IMG/VR virus record: IMGVR_UViG_3300030098_002718
Span: 1-39,909 of that record
Direction: 5' to 3' (one strand)
Length of the DNA stretch: 39,909 nt
Origin: a virus
Numbering within the stretch: the first letter of the stretch is position 1; each line of letters starts with the position of its first letter. A model generated the notes under the pieces. The model did no database searches and was not told the DNA's origin. It was given only the letters and a program-made list of their open reading frames with translations. A program made the translations under genes and the position numbers. Below are positions 11,257 to 33,859 of the stretch, in pieces.

Positions 11257-11907
11257 TTATTTTTTCTTTTCTTCTATTTCGTAGAAGAAACGATCAGTAT
11301 CATCAGTTCTCCAATCTTTATTTTCTACATTCCAATATGTTGTTTGGACTTTGTAATCTGGCCATTCTCCTTTTTTCGTTGTAAACGAATTAATGTTCCA
11401 TAGTATTCTGTTATTTGGTTGAGCAGCGAAATTACCATTGTCAAGTTCCAAGATGTGAGCACACTTATGCTCTTGAGGAATTTCAGAGTGATCAGTATCA
11501 AGTAAATTGGTATCAGGGTGACACCAATCAACGGTAAATAGATACTCACCAGTATAGAATTTTTTATCTTTACCAAAAAATTTTCCTCTTTGACCTGTTA
11601 AAAAAGCAAAGTGATTAACATCATGATAGTAATCAAAACTATTCCACAATTCGAGCTGGTCCTCTGACATATCGGGCACTTCGGAACGATCATTACGTTT
11701 GTTAAAAAACGCTGAGATAGGCAGTCGCCAAAAACACGCACCGTTTGGTAGCATGATGTTAAATAGGATTGCACGACCTGCGATACTTGTGAGGCCGAAG
11801 ATAACACAGTCTTTGCTTTGTCCTTTATACTTTGGATTGAGATCATACAAATACTCCGTTCTTATTTTACAATATATTGGTGGAATGCTACTATTTAAAA
11901 AGGCCAT
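11257..11907 (-). CDS. Conserved hypothetical protein
   Basis: 216 residues from ATG at 11907 (MAFLNSSIPPIYCKI). A TTG at 11946 would add 13 hydrophobic residues; I prefer the ATG, though no good ribosome site precedes either. The protein is soluble, aromatic-rich and acidic (FDYYHDVNHFAFLTG, GEYLFTVDWCHPDTN, QTTYWNVENKDW). Four Cys and several His/Asp clusters (HSEIPQEHKCAHILEL) could bind metal, but there is no recognised motif. It lies between the terminator of the dinucleotide-depleted gene and the glycosyltransferase gene. I have an impression of a conserved marine-phage family without known function. Confidence 0.7.
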   Translation of the reverse strand: MAFLNSSIPPIYCKIRTEYLYDLNPKYKGQSKDCVIFGLTSIAGRAILFNIMLPNGACFWRLPISAFFNKRNDRSEVPDMSEDQLELWNSFDYYHDVNHFAFLTGQRGKFFGKDKKFYTGEYLFTVDWCHPDTNLLDTDHSEIPQEHKCAHILELDNGNFAAQPNNRILWNINSFTTKKGEWPDYKVQTTYWNVENKDWRTDDTDRFFYEIEEKKK

Positions 11908-12084
11908 TGTAAAGATATAAAACAAAACAAATTTTTTTTCTACCAAAATTTATATGGATACCTGCTATTCTACACTGATACTAGCTCTTAGACTTAGATA
12001 AGTAACTAATCAGTTTCAAACTTTCTCGATTTTTTCCGATCAAACTTAATACGATTTTTATTAAAAGATATTTTAAAAAAAGAT

Positions 12085-12119
12085 AAAAAAAAAACTAGCG
12101 AGAAATTAATCTCGCTAGT
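12085..12119 (-). terminator. Intrinsic terminator downstream of the dinucleotide-depleted gene
   Basis: A perfect 10-bp stem (ACTAGCGAGA at 12094-12103, TCTCGCTAGT at 12110-12119) with a six-base loop. On the minus strand it is followed directly by about ten T residues (A run at 12085-12094). It lies 20 bases past the stop of the 12139-12546 gene. Notably, its stem also contains no CA, TG, CC or GG. Confidence 0.85.
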
Positions 12120-12138
12120 CTTTATTAATTTTACGAAT

Positions 12139-12546
12139 TTACTTTAATTCGTTTATTCTTTTTTCGAAATAAGAAATATTATTAATTATTTCTTTATTCG
12201 TAATATTATTTTCTTTTACGAAAATTTTATTACTTTCTAATAAATCTTTATAAAGATTAATTTTACTTTTTTCTAAGTAAGAATTTAAATCGATTAATAG
12301 ATTTACTTTTTTAAAACGATTATTTTTCGTAGTATCGTATTCGATATCTACTTTTCGATAATCGTTATTAAAAGCGTCTTTAATATTAGTCGAGAATTTC
12401 GCTTTCTCGTAAATATTAAACGACTTACTTTTATCTCTCTTAGTATTAAAAAGACGAAATAAAACTTTTTTATTTTCGTACTCTCTAAAAGATAAAGCGA
12501 CTTTATTTTCTTTTAAATCGCTTTTTATTTTCTTATCGTTTTTCAT
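12139..12546 (-). CDS. Hypothetical protein with restricted amino-acid alphabet, in dinucleotide-depleted gene
   Basis: 135 residues, Lys/Asn/Ile/Leu-rich and probably helical. It lacks Gly, Pro, His, Gln, Cys and Trp entirely and has no Met except the first; these are exactly the residues whose codons need CA, TG, CC or GG. Thr, Ala and Ser use only permitted codons. Codons ending in a pyrimidine end in C in all 13 cases before a G-starting codon (AAC GAT, ATC GAA, TTC GTA and so on) and in T almost everywhere else, so T-G is also avoided between codons. The ribosome site is GAAAG rather than GGAG. A strong terminator follows, so the gene is probably its own transcription unit between the terminase subunit genes. 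The intact 135-codon frame with rule-consistent codon choice argues for a real protein. Function unknown; no domain recognised. Confidence 0.75.
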   Translation of the reverse strand: MKNDKKIKSDLKENKVALSFREYENKKVLFRLFNTKRDKSKSFNIYEKAKFSTNIKDAFNNDYRKVDIEYDTTKNNRFKKVNLLIDLNSYLEKSKINLYKDLLESNKIFVKENNITNKEIINNISYFEKRINELK

Positions 12547-12956
12547 TTTTCTACTTTCTATCTTTTAAACTCTAAAAGTTATTTTTAGATTTAAATTTAA
12601 AAGATACGATTATTTTAAACTAAAATAATTTAAAAGTAAATAAGAACAAAAGTAGAACGAAACTTATTTTTGTCTCGTTATTTAACATTAAAAACATATA
12701 AAACCTTTCTTTAAATAATTAATAATAATTATTTATATTCTTATATATATCATTTAAATACGTTTAAATTTTAATTTTTAAATATTTCTGTTTTCCTTAA
12801 AAACAACTCTATCATTTAATTTTTTTTTAATCTGGATCCGCAAGGATCCGTACTGAGCACCTAGGCTCTAGGATCATGGCGGATCAACCGTGTGTCAATG
12901 TCAATGACTGATGCGGCATGTTGTTGTGTCAATCAATCAACAGCAAGCAACCGCCG
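12547..12956. other. 410-base intergenic region between small terminase and the depleted gene
   Basis: No convincing gene on either strand. From 12547 to about 12830 it is extremely AT-rich and should hold the promoter of the minus-strand gene at 12546. The last part, from about 12831, switches abruptly to a G+C-richer sequence with two sets of short phased repeats (listed separately). A plus-strand open frame here runs antisense into the small terminase gene and is not credible. Confidence 0.7.
12834..12885. repeat. Phased GGATC repeats (two pairs, 10-base period)
   Basis: GGATC occurs at 12834, 12844, 12871 and 12881. Within each pair the period is 10 bases, about one helical turn, and the first pair is GGATCCG twice. 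The pairs are 27 bases apart. All lie just downstream of the small terminase stop. This could be a protein-binding array such as a packaging recognition site; that function is inference. Confidence 0.6.
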
Positions 12957-12961
12957 TCAAT
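12894..12961. repeat. GTCAAT repeats with 28-base period
   Basis: GTCAAT starts at 12894, 12900, 12928 and 12956, that is one tandem pair and then two further copies 28 bases apart each; the last enters the 3' end of the small terminase gene. TCAATCAATCAA occurs within the array. Immediately adjacent to the GGATC set, it may be part of the same binding site. Confidence 0.55.
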
Positions 12962-13406
12962 TGATATTGTGTTCTTGTTTGATTGAATCAAGATACTTAG
13001 CTAGATCATCATCGGTCATAGTGTCAAGGGTTGAGTGTTGCACTTCTTTCTTCTCAACAAGAAACCCCAAGAGTTGAGACTTGAGCCTTATCGCATTGAC
13101 TGCTGCTGTATATTGTTTCTTGTTTCTAGCCTCATTGTACAAAGTGTCTAGCTTTTCAACCTCTTTTGACACAGATTCACTTGTCAAGCGCCTAGTGTCA
13201 GCACGCAATCTATCAATGTACTGGATAATTTTATCCTTCTTTAAGTTGCGGGCAGCTTGTACGTGAGCAGATGTTTCAGAATAACCTGCGTCAACAGCCG
13301 CTTGTTTCTTACCTTTTCCTTGCGCTATACCCTCACAGAACTTTTTTTCCATTGAGGATAAAGTAGCTTCGTTAGTCTGATGTATTTGGTCAATAGTTAT
13401 CGCCAT
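12957..13406 (-). CDS. terS: Terminase small subunit
   Basis: 149 residues. Residues about 20-65 (KKFCEGIAQGKGKKQAAVDAGYSETSAHVQAARNLKKDKI, given here in pattern only: conserved FCEGIAQGKGKKQAAVDAGY start) form the helix-turn-helix of the Terminase_2 type, which binds the packaging site. A helical oligomerisation region follows (VEKLDTLYNEARNKKQYTAA), then a segment expected to contact the large subunit. The gene is clearly richer in G+C than its surroundings and uses more balanced codons, hinting at a separate origin or high expression. Repeats that could be its recognition site begin at its 3' end. The small and large subunit genes are separated by three other genes, which is unusual. Confidence 0.85.
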   Translation of the reverse strand: MAITIDQIHQTNEATLSSMEKKFCEGIAQGKGKKQAAVDAGYSETSAHVQAARNLKKDKIIQYIDRLRADTRRLTSESVSKEVEKLDTLYNEARNKKQYTAAVNAIRLKSQLLGFLVEKKEVQHSTLDTMTDDDLAKYLDSIKQEHNIN

Positions 13407-28399: not shown

Positions 28400-28818
28400 T
28401 CTCTTTCTTCTTCCAATATTCTTTCTATGTTAGGAGCTTTCCAATCTTTAGGTTTAACTACATCAAATTTAGTTCCACGTTTTTTTGATTTGCTTTTAGC
28501 TCTAATTTTAGTCATATTTGCTCTTTGAACCTCTTTCCACGCTTTATGAAAAGGTAAATTAAAAAGCCAAGCTGTACCTAATGCTATGTAAACAATATCA
28601 ACTAAAGCATCTAATGCTGCAGCAGCGTCCTTTTTTGTTATTGCATTTGTATATTCTGCAAATTCTTCTGCTAAAAAAGAAGTTCTAAAATTTACTAATT
28701 CGTTATCATCAGGTATACCAACTTTTTCGTTCTTATCAAAACCAAATTTTTTATGAAAAGAATCAATATCTTTTAATAATTTATCATCTTCTTCGTCAAA
28801 CATATGTACATCTGTCAT
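28375..28818 (-). CDS. MazG-like nucleotide pyrophosphatase
   Basis: 147 residues. All-alpha NTP-pyrophosphatase motifs: FLAEEFAEYTNAI (Glu51, Glu52, Glu55) and ALDALVDIVYIALG (Asp70, Asp74), the metal-binding ExxE...ExxD arrangement. These enzymes hydrolyse (d)NTPs to (d)NMP and pyrophosphate. In T4 a dCTPase (gp56) removes dCTP so only the modified base enters DNA; a similar job here would fit the neighbours. Alternatively it could act on ppGpp-related or other nucleotides, as proposed for marine phage MazG. Overlaps the genes on both sides. Confidence 0.85.
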   Translation of the reverse strand: MTDVHMFDEEDDKLLKDIDSFHKKFGFDKNEKVGIPDDNELVNFRTSFLAEEFAEYTNAITKKDAAAALDALVDIVYIALGTAWLFNLPFHKAWKEVQRANMTKIRAKSKSKKRGTKFDVVKPKDWKAPNIERILEEEREWNESKEY

Positions 28819-29873
28819 AGTAAAGCCTCTTGTTCTGGTGCTTTTCTATAATCTATTATTTGTAATTTTTCTTCTTTTTCTTTTTTATCAGTTATACTAT
28901 TTTTAATTACTCTTGCTACATATTCAGCTACTGGTGGCATTACACCTCGTGCGATTTGTGAACCTATACTTGAAGAGGGACCTTCCCATTTATAATCAAC
29001 TGGATATCCAGCCATATATGCTAATTCTTTATGTCCAAATAATCTATCTTCTGTTGGATGTATATAAAATCCTCCAGCAATAACTGGTATATGTGCATCT
29101 GATTTTAATCTCCATTTCATAAACTGAGGCCTACCTTTAACTCCATTTCTCATACCTCCTCTTACCCAAGTTTCTGGCGGATTAAATCTTTCCCATGTAA
29201 CTCTTAAACTTTCACCTTGTTTACAATGTTTTAAATAAGGTATTTCGTTTTTACCAAGTCTCATTAAATAACCTATATCTTTTCCATATTCTTTTTTAAA
29301 AGAACTTAATACTTCGCCTGCAGTTGGCAACGGTTGAAAATTTAAACCACTTGTATTTAAATTATATTTTGTTGCTATAAAGAAAAATCTTTTTCTTGAA
29401 TGGTTTAAACCTGTAAATCCGCCATCAATTAATAAATGAGTTACTTGATATCCTAATTTATTTGCTTCTTCTGATAACTCCATGATCATCGGTCTACCGC
29501 CATTTTTACTGTAAACTCTAGGAACTGATTCAATTGCAATAGCTTTTGGTTTTAATTCTTTTAACAAATTAAAACTATCTCTCCAGCATTTTATTCTAGG
29601 ATCATTTCTCCACGCTCCTGCACCTTTTTGTGCACCACCTAAATTAGACCAGGGAGCACACGGAGGATTACAATATACAAAATCTATTTTATTTTTATAT
29701 TTTTTTCTTGGCCAATTTTCAACACCTTCATAAATAGGTATTTTTGGAAAATTAGCTTGAAAAGTTTTTTTGTATGCAGCAGGCTTTCCTTCAAAGTGTG
29801 CTTCTACATTAAAATGTTTACTAACTCCTAGAGTAAAACCACCTGCAAATATATATGTACCTAGTGCTTTCAT
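28815..29873 (-). CDS. DNA C5-cytosine methyltransferase-like protein
   Basis: 352 residues. Motif I GTYIFAGGFTLGVSKHFNV (compact FAGG-FTLG), motif IV VYCNPPCAPWSNLGG with the catalytic Cys72 in the Pro-Cys pair, motif VI IAIESVPRVYS with Glu115 (ESV rather than ENV), motif VIII HSRKRFFFIAT, motif IX-like ELAYMAGYP and motif X QIARGVMPPVAEYVARVI. Order is standard, so not permuted. The target-recognition region is about 180-270. It transfers a methyl (or a related carbon group) to cytosine C5. There is no partner restriction nuclease. Why a C5 enzyme accompanies a dCMP hydroxymethylase is puzzling: it may act on remaining C, or use a different donor. Confidence 0.85.
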   Translation of the reverse strand: MKALGTYIFAGGFTLGVSKHFNVEAHFEGKPAAYKKTFQANFPKIPIYEGVENWPRKKYKNKIDFVYCNPPCAPWSNLGGAQKGAGAWRNDPRIKCWRDSFNLLKELKPKAIAIESVPRVYSKNGGRPMIMELSEEANKLGYQVTHLLIDGGFTGLNHSRKRFFFIATKYNLNTSGLNFQPLPTAGEVLSSFKKEYGKDIGYLMRLGKNEIPYLKHCKQGESLRVTWERFNPPETWVRGGMRNGVKGRPQFMKWRLKSDAHIPVIAGGFYIHPTEDRLFGHKELAYMAGYPVDYKWEGPSSSIGSQIARGVMPPVAEYVARVIKNSITDKKEKEEKLQIIDYRKAPEQEALL

Positions 29874-32167: not shown

Positions 32168-32361
32168 TATAATCCTTTCTTTACGTCAAAGCCAATACCT
32201 TTAACTTCTACATTAGAGTTTTTTTTATTTTTATCTCTATCTTGTTCTAAAAATAAAATTGCTGCAGTTATACTATCTTTATTAGGTGCATAACTGTCGT
32301 CATTTGATAAACTTCTATGTGCGTGTTCAAGTAGAATGTTTATTGCTCTTTCTTTATTCAT
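32167..32361 (-). CDS. Small hypothetical protein
   Basis: 64 residues: helical start (MNKERAINILLEHAHRSLSN), a short loop and second helix (KDSITAAILFLEQDRDKNKK) and a polar tail. No known motif. Fully embedded in the replication operon (eight-base overlap upstream, one base downstream), so perhaps a replication accessory. Confidence 0.6.
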   Translation of the reverse strand: MNKERAINILLEHAHRSLSNDDSYAPNKDSITAAILFLEQDRDKNKKNSNVEVKGIGFDVKKGL

Positions 32362-33859
32362 ATGCCTCCTTTGTTATTTCTGGTTGTTTAAATTCTTCGT
32401 TTTGTGTTTCAAAGTTTTTAATTGACCAAGCGTTAGTAAATTTACCTTTTATCTTTTTTCCTGAGTGTGTAGCACCTAAATTTTTAAGATAAGCAGTAAT
32501 TTCGTGTAATTTAAATTCTTTAAAACGATGTCTATCTAAAAATTCCATAAAATCATTAATTCTAAACAATGTTTTTTCTTCTTGAATAACAGCTTTACCT
32601 CTTAATAAATCTTCATATTCTGTAGAACTTGTAGAACCAGTACAAAATCTTTCTAACAATTCGTATAATCTACCTTCATTACTACTATCATCTGGAACTT
32701 CTACAGCTTCTAATTTTTGCATAAGATCATTTACTGTTTCTGTCCATATTTTATCATTTACTTTTGGCAACAACATATCTAAATTTTCAAAAACGATTTC
32801 TTTAAAATCTAAAAAATTATAAATTTGTTTAGCTTTCAATGGACCAATTCTTTTGCTATTTAAAGTTAAATAATAAGTAGGTGGTTTAGTTAACATTTTA
32901 GTTACACTATTTAAAATAGGCATTTGGCCATCGTCATTAATACCATACTTACAAGTTAAACACTTAGGTCTTTGACATACTGAATTTATTGGAGAATCAT
33001 TACATTTATAATTATAGGTTTTCTTATCTAAAGAATTTAAGACTGTTGTAAATTCTCTAGGTTTAAGTGATGGTTCTATATATTTTTCATTAAATTCTTC
33101 TAATCTCTCTTGCCAATGTTCTTCATCAGATTTTCTTAAATATACACCTAAATTAAATAAACCATTGTTTCTACCGCCTTCTGATATACCACCAGCAGAA
33201 AGTAAATGTTGTAAACAAGGTGGTCCACCAGGTAATTTTTCTTCTACGTCATTAACTTTTTTTATAAAATTTAAATCTATTTCTTCTAAACTGTTTACTG
33301 AAAATTTTTTAATCCACTTAATAAAATGATCTGCAATTAAAACTTCTCCATTATATAATGCATACCTATCTGTTTCGTCAGATCCAAAGTATGGCATATT
33401 AAGCCAACTACCGCAGTCATTATCGTCTATTAATTTAGTTTGTTGTGGTCTTAAATCGTATTTAACAAAACCAAAGGCCTTAGCAATTTCTTTTAATTTT
33501 GTAATCATTTTTGATGCTGGCACAAATTTTTTAGTAAAAATAAAAATGTGTGCACCACCACTTTTTGATCTACATATAATTAAATTTTTATTAACAAATG
33601 TTTTTGAAATTTTTTCTAAATCTACAGCATAATCATCAACGTCAAGACAACCCCATTGACACTTATTGTCTTCGTTAATTGGAACAACACCTAGACCTAT
33701 CTTGCCATCTAGGTGTTCTTTCCATAGTTCTTTTACATAAGGTTCTCTTATAGTCTTTCCATAGCCTTCAAGTTTAAGACCTTTTTTACCTGTTACAGTA
33801 AATTTGCCATAAACACGAGTTAAGCCTGGAAAGACTTTGTAAAAATCTTCGAACAACAT
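32354..33859 (-). CDS. Archaeo-eukaryotic-type primase (AEP / PrimPol-like)
   Basis: 501 residues. CQWGCLDVDDYAVD has the metal-binding hhDhDD (Asp73, Asp75); IICRSKSGGAHIFIF carries the conserved Ser and His104; YDLRPQQTKLIDDNDCGSWL, then NMPYF, completes the AEP site. A Cys cluster CNDSPINSVCQRPKCLTCKY around residues 285-310 probably binds zinc. The C-terminal half is a helical domain of unknown function and shows no Walker motifs, so no fused helicase. It would prime DNA synthesis for the family A polymerase, replacing the T7-type DnaG primase-helicase. No DnaB-type helicase is seen in the window. Confidence 0.85.
   Translation of the reverse strand: MLFEDFYKVFPGLTRVYGKFTVTGKKGLKLEGYGKTIREPYVKELWKEHLDGKIGLGVVPINEDNKCQWGCLDVDDYAVDLEKISKTFVNKNLIICRSKSGGAHIFIFTKKFVPASKMITKLKEIAKAFGFVKYDLRPQQTKLIDDNDCGSWLNMPYFGSDETDRYALYNGEVLIADHFIKWIKKFSVNSLEEIDLNFIKKVNDVEEKLPGGPPCLQHLLSAGGISEGGRNNGLFNLGVYLRKSDEEHWQERLEEFNEKYIEPSLKPREFTTVLNSLDKKTYNYKCNDSPINSVCQRPKCLTCKYGINDDGQMPILNSVTKMLTKPPTYYLTLNSKRIGPLKAKQIYNFLDFKEIVFENLDMLLPKVNDKIWTETVNDLMQKLEAVEVPDDSSNEGRLYELLERFCTGSTSSTEYEDLLRGKAVIQEEKTLFRINDFMEFLDRHRFKEFKLHEITAYLKNLGATHSGKKIKGKFTNAWSIKNFETQNEEFKQPEITKEAYE

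Follow-up and report, generated by a model that had tools for sequence, protein, structure and literature searches.

Known systems and the locus

In phage T7 the small early gene 0.3, which encodes Ocr, counters a defence and lies in DNA without that defence's sites, an arrangement that lets Ocr be expressed before attack. Here we analyze a locus of IMG/VR virus record IMGVR_UViG_3300030098_002718, within the 39,909 nucleotides at positions 1–39,909 of this 48.9-kb record (the window), where a gene for a 135-aa orphan protein, which we call gene B, lies in an island holding a single instance of the dinucleotides CA, CC, TG, and GG (forbidden steps). The likeness to the T7 region is that of a small gene in DNA without the target of a defence, a likeness that depends on the counter-defence role we propose for gene B. 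The T7 sites are long and rare, however, whereas at gene B a two-base target is absent over 600–900 bp on one or both strands; unlike the T7 arrangement, the start codon of gene B can change, and its protein shows no homology to a known inhibitor.

Sequence-wide avoidance of a dinucleotide under selection by an immune sensor is known from the suppression of CpG in vertebrate RNA viruses under ZAP; that avoidance is partial, genome-wide, and exerted at the RNA level, whereas the ban at gene B is complete, restricted to one gene, and continues past the terminator. Repeat-induced point mutation in fungi depletes CA and TG in a bounded region, but it leaves a mutational wreck of duplicated genes, whereas the gene B family shows an enrichment of CG, keeps its reading frames, and has ordinary paralogues next to banned copies. 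We know of no system in which two-base steps have been entirely purged from one cassette and the two strands behave separately, and no account of an element of this kind turned up in literature searches, in agreement with the initial annotation, which knew of none in phages. The chlorovirus nickase Nt.CviPII, with the site CCD, is an example of a viral enzyme that is strand-specific and has a target of nearly dinucleotide size; it recognizes CC before A, G, or T but not CA, belongs to an algal virus, and is not linked to any ban island in the text consulted (PMC7019647). The Ssp phosphorothioate system acts on single strands at CCA (PMC8092258), and Dnd systems have targets of the form GNNC, which are also depleted in gene B; these three- and four-base targets nevertheless leave the loss of every CA and CC unexplained.

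A dinucleotide ban around gene B

The strict block spans positions 12042–12646 (605 bp), is bounded by a CA at 12041 and a CA at 12647, and holds one forbidden step, the CA at 12544, which is part of the ATG start codon (12544–12546, minus strand) of the gene B open reading frame (ORF; 12139–12546, minus strand). The initial annotation correctly recognized the start codon as the sole exception and placed the end of the island at 12646, but its proposed beginning at 12053 was slightly too far in. Within the block, 23 of the 49 G are preceded by A and 26 by C, with none preceded by another base; the 67 C are followed by T (40), G (26), or, in the start codon, A (1). Shuffles of the block with the same base composition contain 57.2 ± 5.4 forbidden steps (minimum of 35 in 20,000; Poisson P ~8e-24), bearing out the claim of a deficit far below chance and leading us to reject chance as its origin. 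The poorest of the other 605-bp windows contains 61 forbidden steps (median 93), and the next-longest run free of them is 66 bp in the window, the longest others over the whole record being 64–66 bp. When the protein is back-translated using the codon usage of the phage, the ORF is expected to contain ~13.6 TG/GG and ~12.0 CA/CC steps and contains none of either, whereas control genes of similar size are close to this expectation. The reported enrichment of CG also stands (25 seen versus 5.4 expected): its density is 2.7 times that of the genome, and relative to the codon null CG is 4.8-fold enriched. No second TG/GG or CA/CC ban of similar strength was found in the record and in the sequence of relatives examined, and we therefore reject a genome-wide property of the phage.

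Grades of the ban among homologues

Up to 173 matching stretches, drawn from many different metagenomes, were retrieved in scans of IMG/VR, and a large clade of marine tailed phages carries the island at one constant locus. The 92 distinct full-length copies used for a protein tree fall into four grades: strict, coding-strand-only, leaky, and ordinary. Strict copies, with zero forbidden steps inside the gene, comprise 46 distinct homologues, so the ban is conserved, a point that the initial annotation had singled out for checking. In these copies all of the 36–51 G follow A or C and all of the 26–37 C precede G or T, and exception-free runs reach 921 bp. In the sequence examined, the ban was found only in the gene B family, down to ~45% identity. 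Such confinement would be expected if the gene B protein itself were a takeover protein that cleaves or modifies nucleic acid and to which its own gene must be immune. We consider this quite improbable, though still a serious rival, given that ordinary alleles share the conserved residues yet carry no ban, that His, Cys, and any recognizable catalytic motif or nuclease fold are missing from the strict protein, and that the remaining genome is unprotected.

The strands are constrained separately. In the coding-strand-only copies (L017 copy 1, L209, L192, L175, and L156/L161) there are 0–2 TG/GG steps versus 11–18 expected, with CA/CC at 0.7–1.5 of expectation; L017 copy 1 (L017:3617–4006), for example, has TG/GG at 0 of 49 G and CA/CC at 37 of 69 C. 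The reverse state, with CA/CC banned and TG/GG normal, was never seen among the copies analyzed, the nearest approach being a few copies with 3–4 TG/GG and 0–1 CA/CC. Leaky copies are intermediate. Ordinary copies have TG/GG at 0.7–0.95 and CA/CC at 1.1–1.6 of the protein-given expectation and, beyond a mild avoidance of TG (0.66 of expectation versus 1.02 in control genes), show no other kind of ban. The earlier argument that a strand-symmetric ban points to a reader of double-stranded DNA thus fails in general: such a reader should leave an equal ban on both strands in all members, whereas coding-strand-only bans occur in at least five lineages.

That TG/GG on the coding strand is the ban able to occur alone follows directly from an alternative at the RNA level, in which an endoribonuclease (a host toxin, an abortive-infection enzyme, or a phage shut-off RNase) cuts UG and GG, gene B mRNA survives, and the CA/CC ban shields antisense RNA. 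The mild TG avoidance of ordinary alleles is in line with such cutting, as is the clean stretch of L017 copy 1, which runs from the start codon to just beyond the stop. The leader of this copy retains GG, however, both-strand bans in most lineages would require a putative antisense transcript, and the ban passes the terminator and covers both strands over similar distances; we therefore regard cutting of RNA as unlikely, although credible.

The ban is optional and has been gained and lost repeatedly, with at least seven well-supported changes of the strict state required on the protein tree. At least ten distinct contigs (L014, L016, L023, L033, L054, L079, L160, L302, and others) carry an ordinary copy followed ~500 bp on by a strict copy, and in the L017 tandem a strict copy comes after a coding-strand-only copy; at the same locus, a single ordinary gene is present in L287 and its kin. 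Taken together, the tandem pairs and the L287-type loci indicate that the ban belongs to particular alleles and not to the neighborhood, and the presence of ordinary and banned paralogues ~500 bp apart in the same genome argues against local mutation or low complexity as the cause. Given this and the dozens of separate metagenome contigs, we also reject a sequencing or assembly artefact. More generally, separation of the strands, an optional ban, and its repeated gain and loss argue against an artefact, a genome-wide process, and a simple double-strand reader. Comparison of positions 11257–12546 with L001 shows a downstream flank that is 99% identical and an ORF that is 87% identical and differs in strictness, which suggests replacement of gene B alleles by recombination between near-identical phages, apparently as in arms-race genes.

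Extent of the ban and routes of replacement

When strict loci are pooled, almost no forbidden steps occur between ~-100 and ~+75 around the gene, and their frequency climbs gradually to normal by ~-400 and ~+225; the initial description of flanks returning to normal at once on both sides does not hold everywhere. Full-ban islands cover the leader, the gene, and the terminator over similar spans on both strands. In the window the terminator is represented by a hairpin followed by a T-run (12094–12119, minus strand), which resembles an intrinsic terminator and lies within the ban just 3' of gene B. In the non-coding flanks the steps found in place of CA include TA, CG, AA, and AG, and those in place of TG include TA and TT, a mixture indicating that forbidden steps were removed by any available route and not by one directed mutation. 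A CA-rich leader element near -150 has kept CA in ATG lineages and has CG in several ATA lineages.

The gradual waning of the pressure with distance from the gene is what a mutational origin might produce, either by locus-targeted C-to-T change in CA and CC contexts, one of the processes initially proposed, or by deamination of the base following C, and the change of ATG to ATA described below is of this kind. C-to-T change cannot reach the 2.7-fold excess of CG over the genome (A-to-G change after C could fit it), and it would leave the single-product signature of repeat-induced point mutation, whereas the products are mixed and the protein is under purifying selection. Given also that ATG is retained in 33 otherwise perfect lineages and that a paralogue ~500 bp away is unaffected, we judge a mutational origin very unlikely. 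The diverse replacements and the codon-position differences reported below fit selection, a putative cause of the ban that is better supported than mutation.

The pressure can extend to the start codon. Thirteen distinct strict homologues (among them L037, L039, L042, L043, L061, L066, L067, and L069), located in ~4 places on the tree, lack ATG, GTG, and TTG throughout the open frame. All have a Shine-Dalgarno-like purine run, after which come ATA and, nine bases later, ACG, and in most of them ATANACTATACG follows the conserved run; we infer from this arrangement that translation starts at ATA or ACG. Codon-position differences of 0.135/0.077/0.213 indicate that the ATG-less proteins are still under purifying selection, and loss of the NTG codon is a costly change to avoid one TG. 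Avoidance of extra NTG starts and of GG in Shine-Dalgarno sequences, which we considered as a cause of the ban, suits the coding strand but leaves the opposite strand and the untranslated flanks unexplained.

As a secondary signal, GNNC is depleted about fourfold in strict ORFs beyond the effect of the ban, GATC above all: 12 GNNC are present versus 45.6 ± 6.1, and 0 GATC versus 13.9, under a null that fixes the protein, codon usage, and ban. GNNC is the form of the Dnd targets GAAC/GTTC, GGCC, and GATC, so that evasion of phosphorothioate systems deserves mention, as does evasion of CRISPR (clustered regularly interspaced short palindromic repeats) systems whose protospacer-adjacent motif is CM/KG (M, A or C; K, G or T). 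Neither phosphorothioate systems nor such CRISPR systems are known to us to be common in pelagic hosts. Evasion of Ssp, which uses CCA (PMC8092258), would forbid that trinucleotide but not every CA and CC, and depletion is not limited to CCA and GNNC, every CA and CC being gone. Loss of a protospacer-adjacent motif at every site would be hard to select, and we give this family of explanations very little credence.

The gene B protein

The gene B protein of the window is devoid of G, W, C, H, P, and Q and of internal M. It has no match in Pfam, PHROGs, PADLOC, or PDB sequences, no homologue was found in the isolated phages and the bacterial and archaeal genomes searched, and a search of Rfam gave no match. 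Codon-position differences of 0.14–0.15/0.08–0.10/0.21–0.26 show purifying selection on the protein. A first structure model, with a predicted local distance difference test score (pLDDT) of 53, was unusable; AlphaFold prediction from a more diverse alignment yielded a confident, mostly helical model (pLDDT of 90, predicted template modelling score of 0.83) whose fold matched nothing in PDB or BFVD.

A proposed function in evasion of a strand-specific agent

Any explanation of the ban needs a two-base target and separate action on each strand, coding-strand TG/GG that is more often banned alone, confinement to the gene B family, switching between close relatives, and enough strength to displace a start codon. 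Evasion of a damaging agent that acts on the strands individually fits most of these requirements. We tentatively favor the explanation, which we hold to be somewhat more doubtful than probable, that selection keeps the cassette free of the two-nucleotide target of a strand-specific damaging agent and that the protein counters this agent, probably a host defence. The initial proposal that the sequence escapes an enzyme whose target is very short therefore remains the foremost type of explanation, now extended by strand specificity.

We posit that the island is an expression cassette of leader, gene B, and terminator from which selection would have erased the target, keeping the gene usable in the presence of the active agent; the compact leader–gene–terminator unit is indeed free of it. 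The agent would nick or modify C before A or C in DNA, which reads on the opposite strand as G preceded by T or G. The template strand would be cleaned first, by removal of TG/GG from the coding strand, since transcription is blocked by a lesion in the template, and cleaning of both strands would keep the DNA intact. The simplest reason for protecting gene B alone would be that its protein is a factor acting against the agent, and lineages that do not meet such an agent would keep ordinary alleles. DNA is modestly preferred over RNA as the target since the clean spans are similar on the two strands; both the maker of the agent and the role of the protein are what we infer from this pattern.

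Several points weigh against this explanation. We know of no enzyme with this two-base target, and none matching it was identified in our analysis. The phage tolerates thousands of CM/KG sites elsewhere, so that the agent must matter only while gene B is needed. An ordinary paralogue next door shows that the function of the family does not always depend on the ban, the protein has no recognizable anti-defence homology by sequence or fold, and in a few lineages (L032 and L163) TG/GG is slightly relaxed with CA/CC still zero.

If the evasion hypothesis is true, the locus represents immune evasion in which one cassette has been wholly cleared of the target, and the ban points to an undescribed sensor or nuclease acting on a widespread marine phage group. 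That infected marine bacteria harbor a new two-base, strand-specific agent, and that the gene for the counter-measure was rewritten as the sole cassette left expressible, is a proposition that we doubt only a little more than we credit. The locus also offers a natural experiment on the limits of selective gene rewriting, with seven amino acids lost and the start codon sometimes replaced, in which strict, coding-strand-only, leaky, and ordinary alleles are matched natural controls.

Gene neighborhood and phage genome

In the relatives examined, the gene order is terminase small subunit (TerS), TG/CA-rich spacer, GGATC cluster, leader, gene B, terminator hairpin, AATCGTATTAAGTTT repeats, PurM/ferredoxin-like gene, glycosyltransferase, and terminase large subunit (TerL), and this constant synteny gives no support to a mobile element. 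In the window, TerS is encoded at 12957–13406 (minus strand) and the PurM/ferredoxin-annotated family (phrog_3704; 68% identical in pelagiphages) at 11257–11946 (minus strand). The AATCGTATTAAGTTT motif (12043–12057, minus strand) marks the downstream edge of the island; relatives have two copies ~25 bp apart, and close matches are confined to the locus in the genomes checked. At the other edge, a 25-codon ORF (12620–12697, minus strand) has a hydrophobic end (MFLMLNNETKISFVLLLFLFTFKLF), and comparable micro-ORFs occur upstream of gene B in relatives.

A GGATC/GATCC cluster (12834–12886), with a spacing of ~10 bp in relatives, occurs in these genomes at the gene B locus only; in tandem pairs, where checked, it precedes each copy. 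It is a possible binding site (pac/cos) of the terminase small subunit. The densest TG/CA stretch of the record (12891–12990; 27 per 100 bp versus a mean of 11) follows it, so that the TG/CA-richest stretch of the genome directly adjoins the poorest. The position of the cluster and this stretch between TerS and the island, together with the repetition of the array before the second copy in tandem loci, could reflect a terminase nuclease that prefers CA/TG/CC/GG, with the DNA adjacent to a presumed packaging site made cut-proof. However, L287 pairs the same array with an ordinary gene, the ban is centered on the gene and not on the array, coding-strand-only bans are left unexplained, and the pac/cos assignment is itself a prediction, which makes a packaging effect highly improbable. 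Contig ends, examined as a guide to the genome termini and to whether the island could enter the cell first, are scattered, and no terminal repeat was found; the island lies beside TerS and the GGATC cluster.

The phage is tailed and encodes an A-family DNA polymerase, an archaeo-eukaryotic-type (AEP) primase, a terminase, a glycosyltransferase, and a C5-cytosine methyltransferase. Its nearest isolates by terminase and PurM/ferredoxin protein include HTVC023P and HTVC027P (about 43% and 68% identity), and given that these are pelagiphages, the host is probably a Pelagibacterales bacterium. Neither isolate has gene B or any ban. The methyltransferase (28815–29873) is conserved in the clade and was not found in either isolate; it is present in G000 and G004, which have strict alleles, and in G001, whose allele is leaky, and was not found in G002 and G003, whose records stop short of that genome part. 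Its presence with strict and leaky alleles alike makes it an unlikely cause of the ban and weakens the suggestion that a cytosine modification is kept out of the region. The AEP-type primase, which has a PriCT domain (32354–33859), belongs to a class of enzymes that can use short template motifs and is a possible alternative reader of two-base steps.
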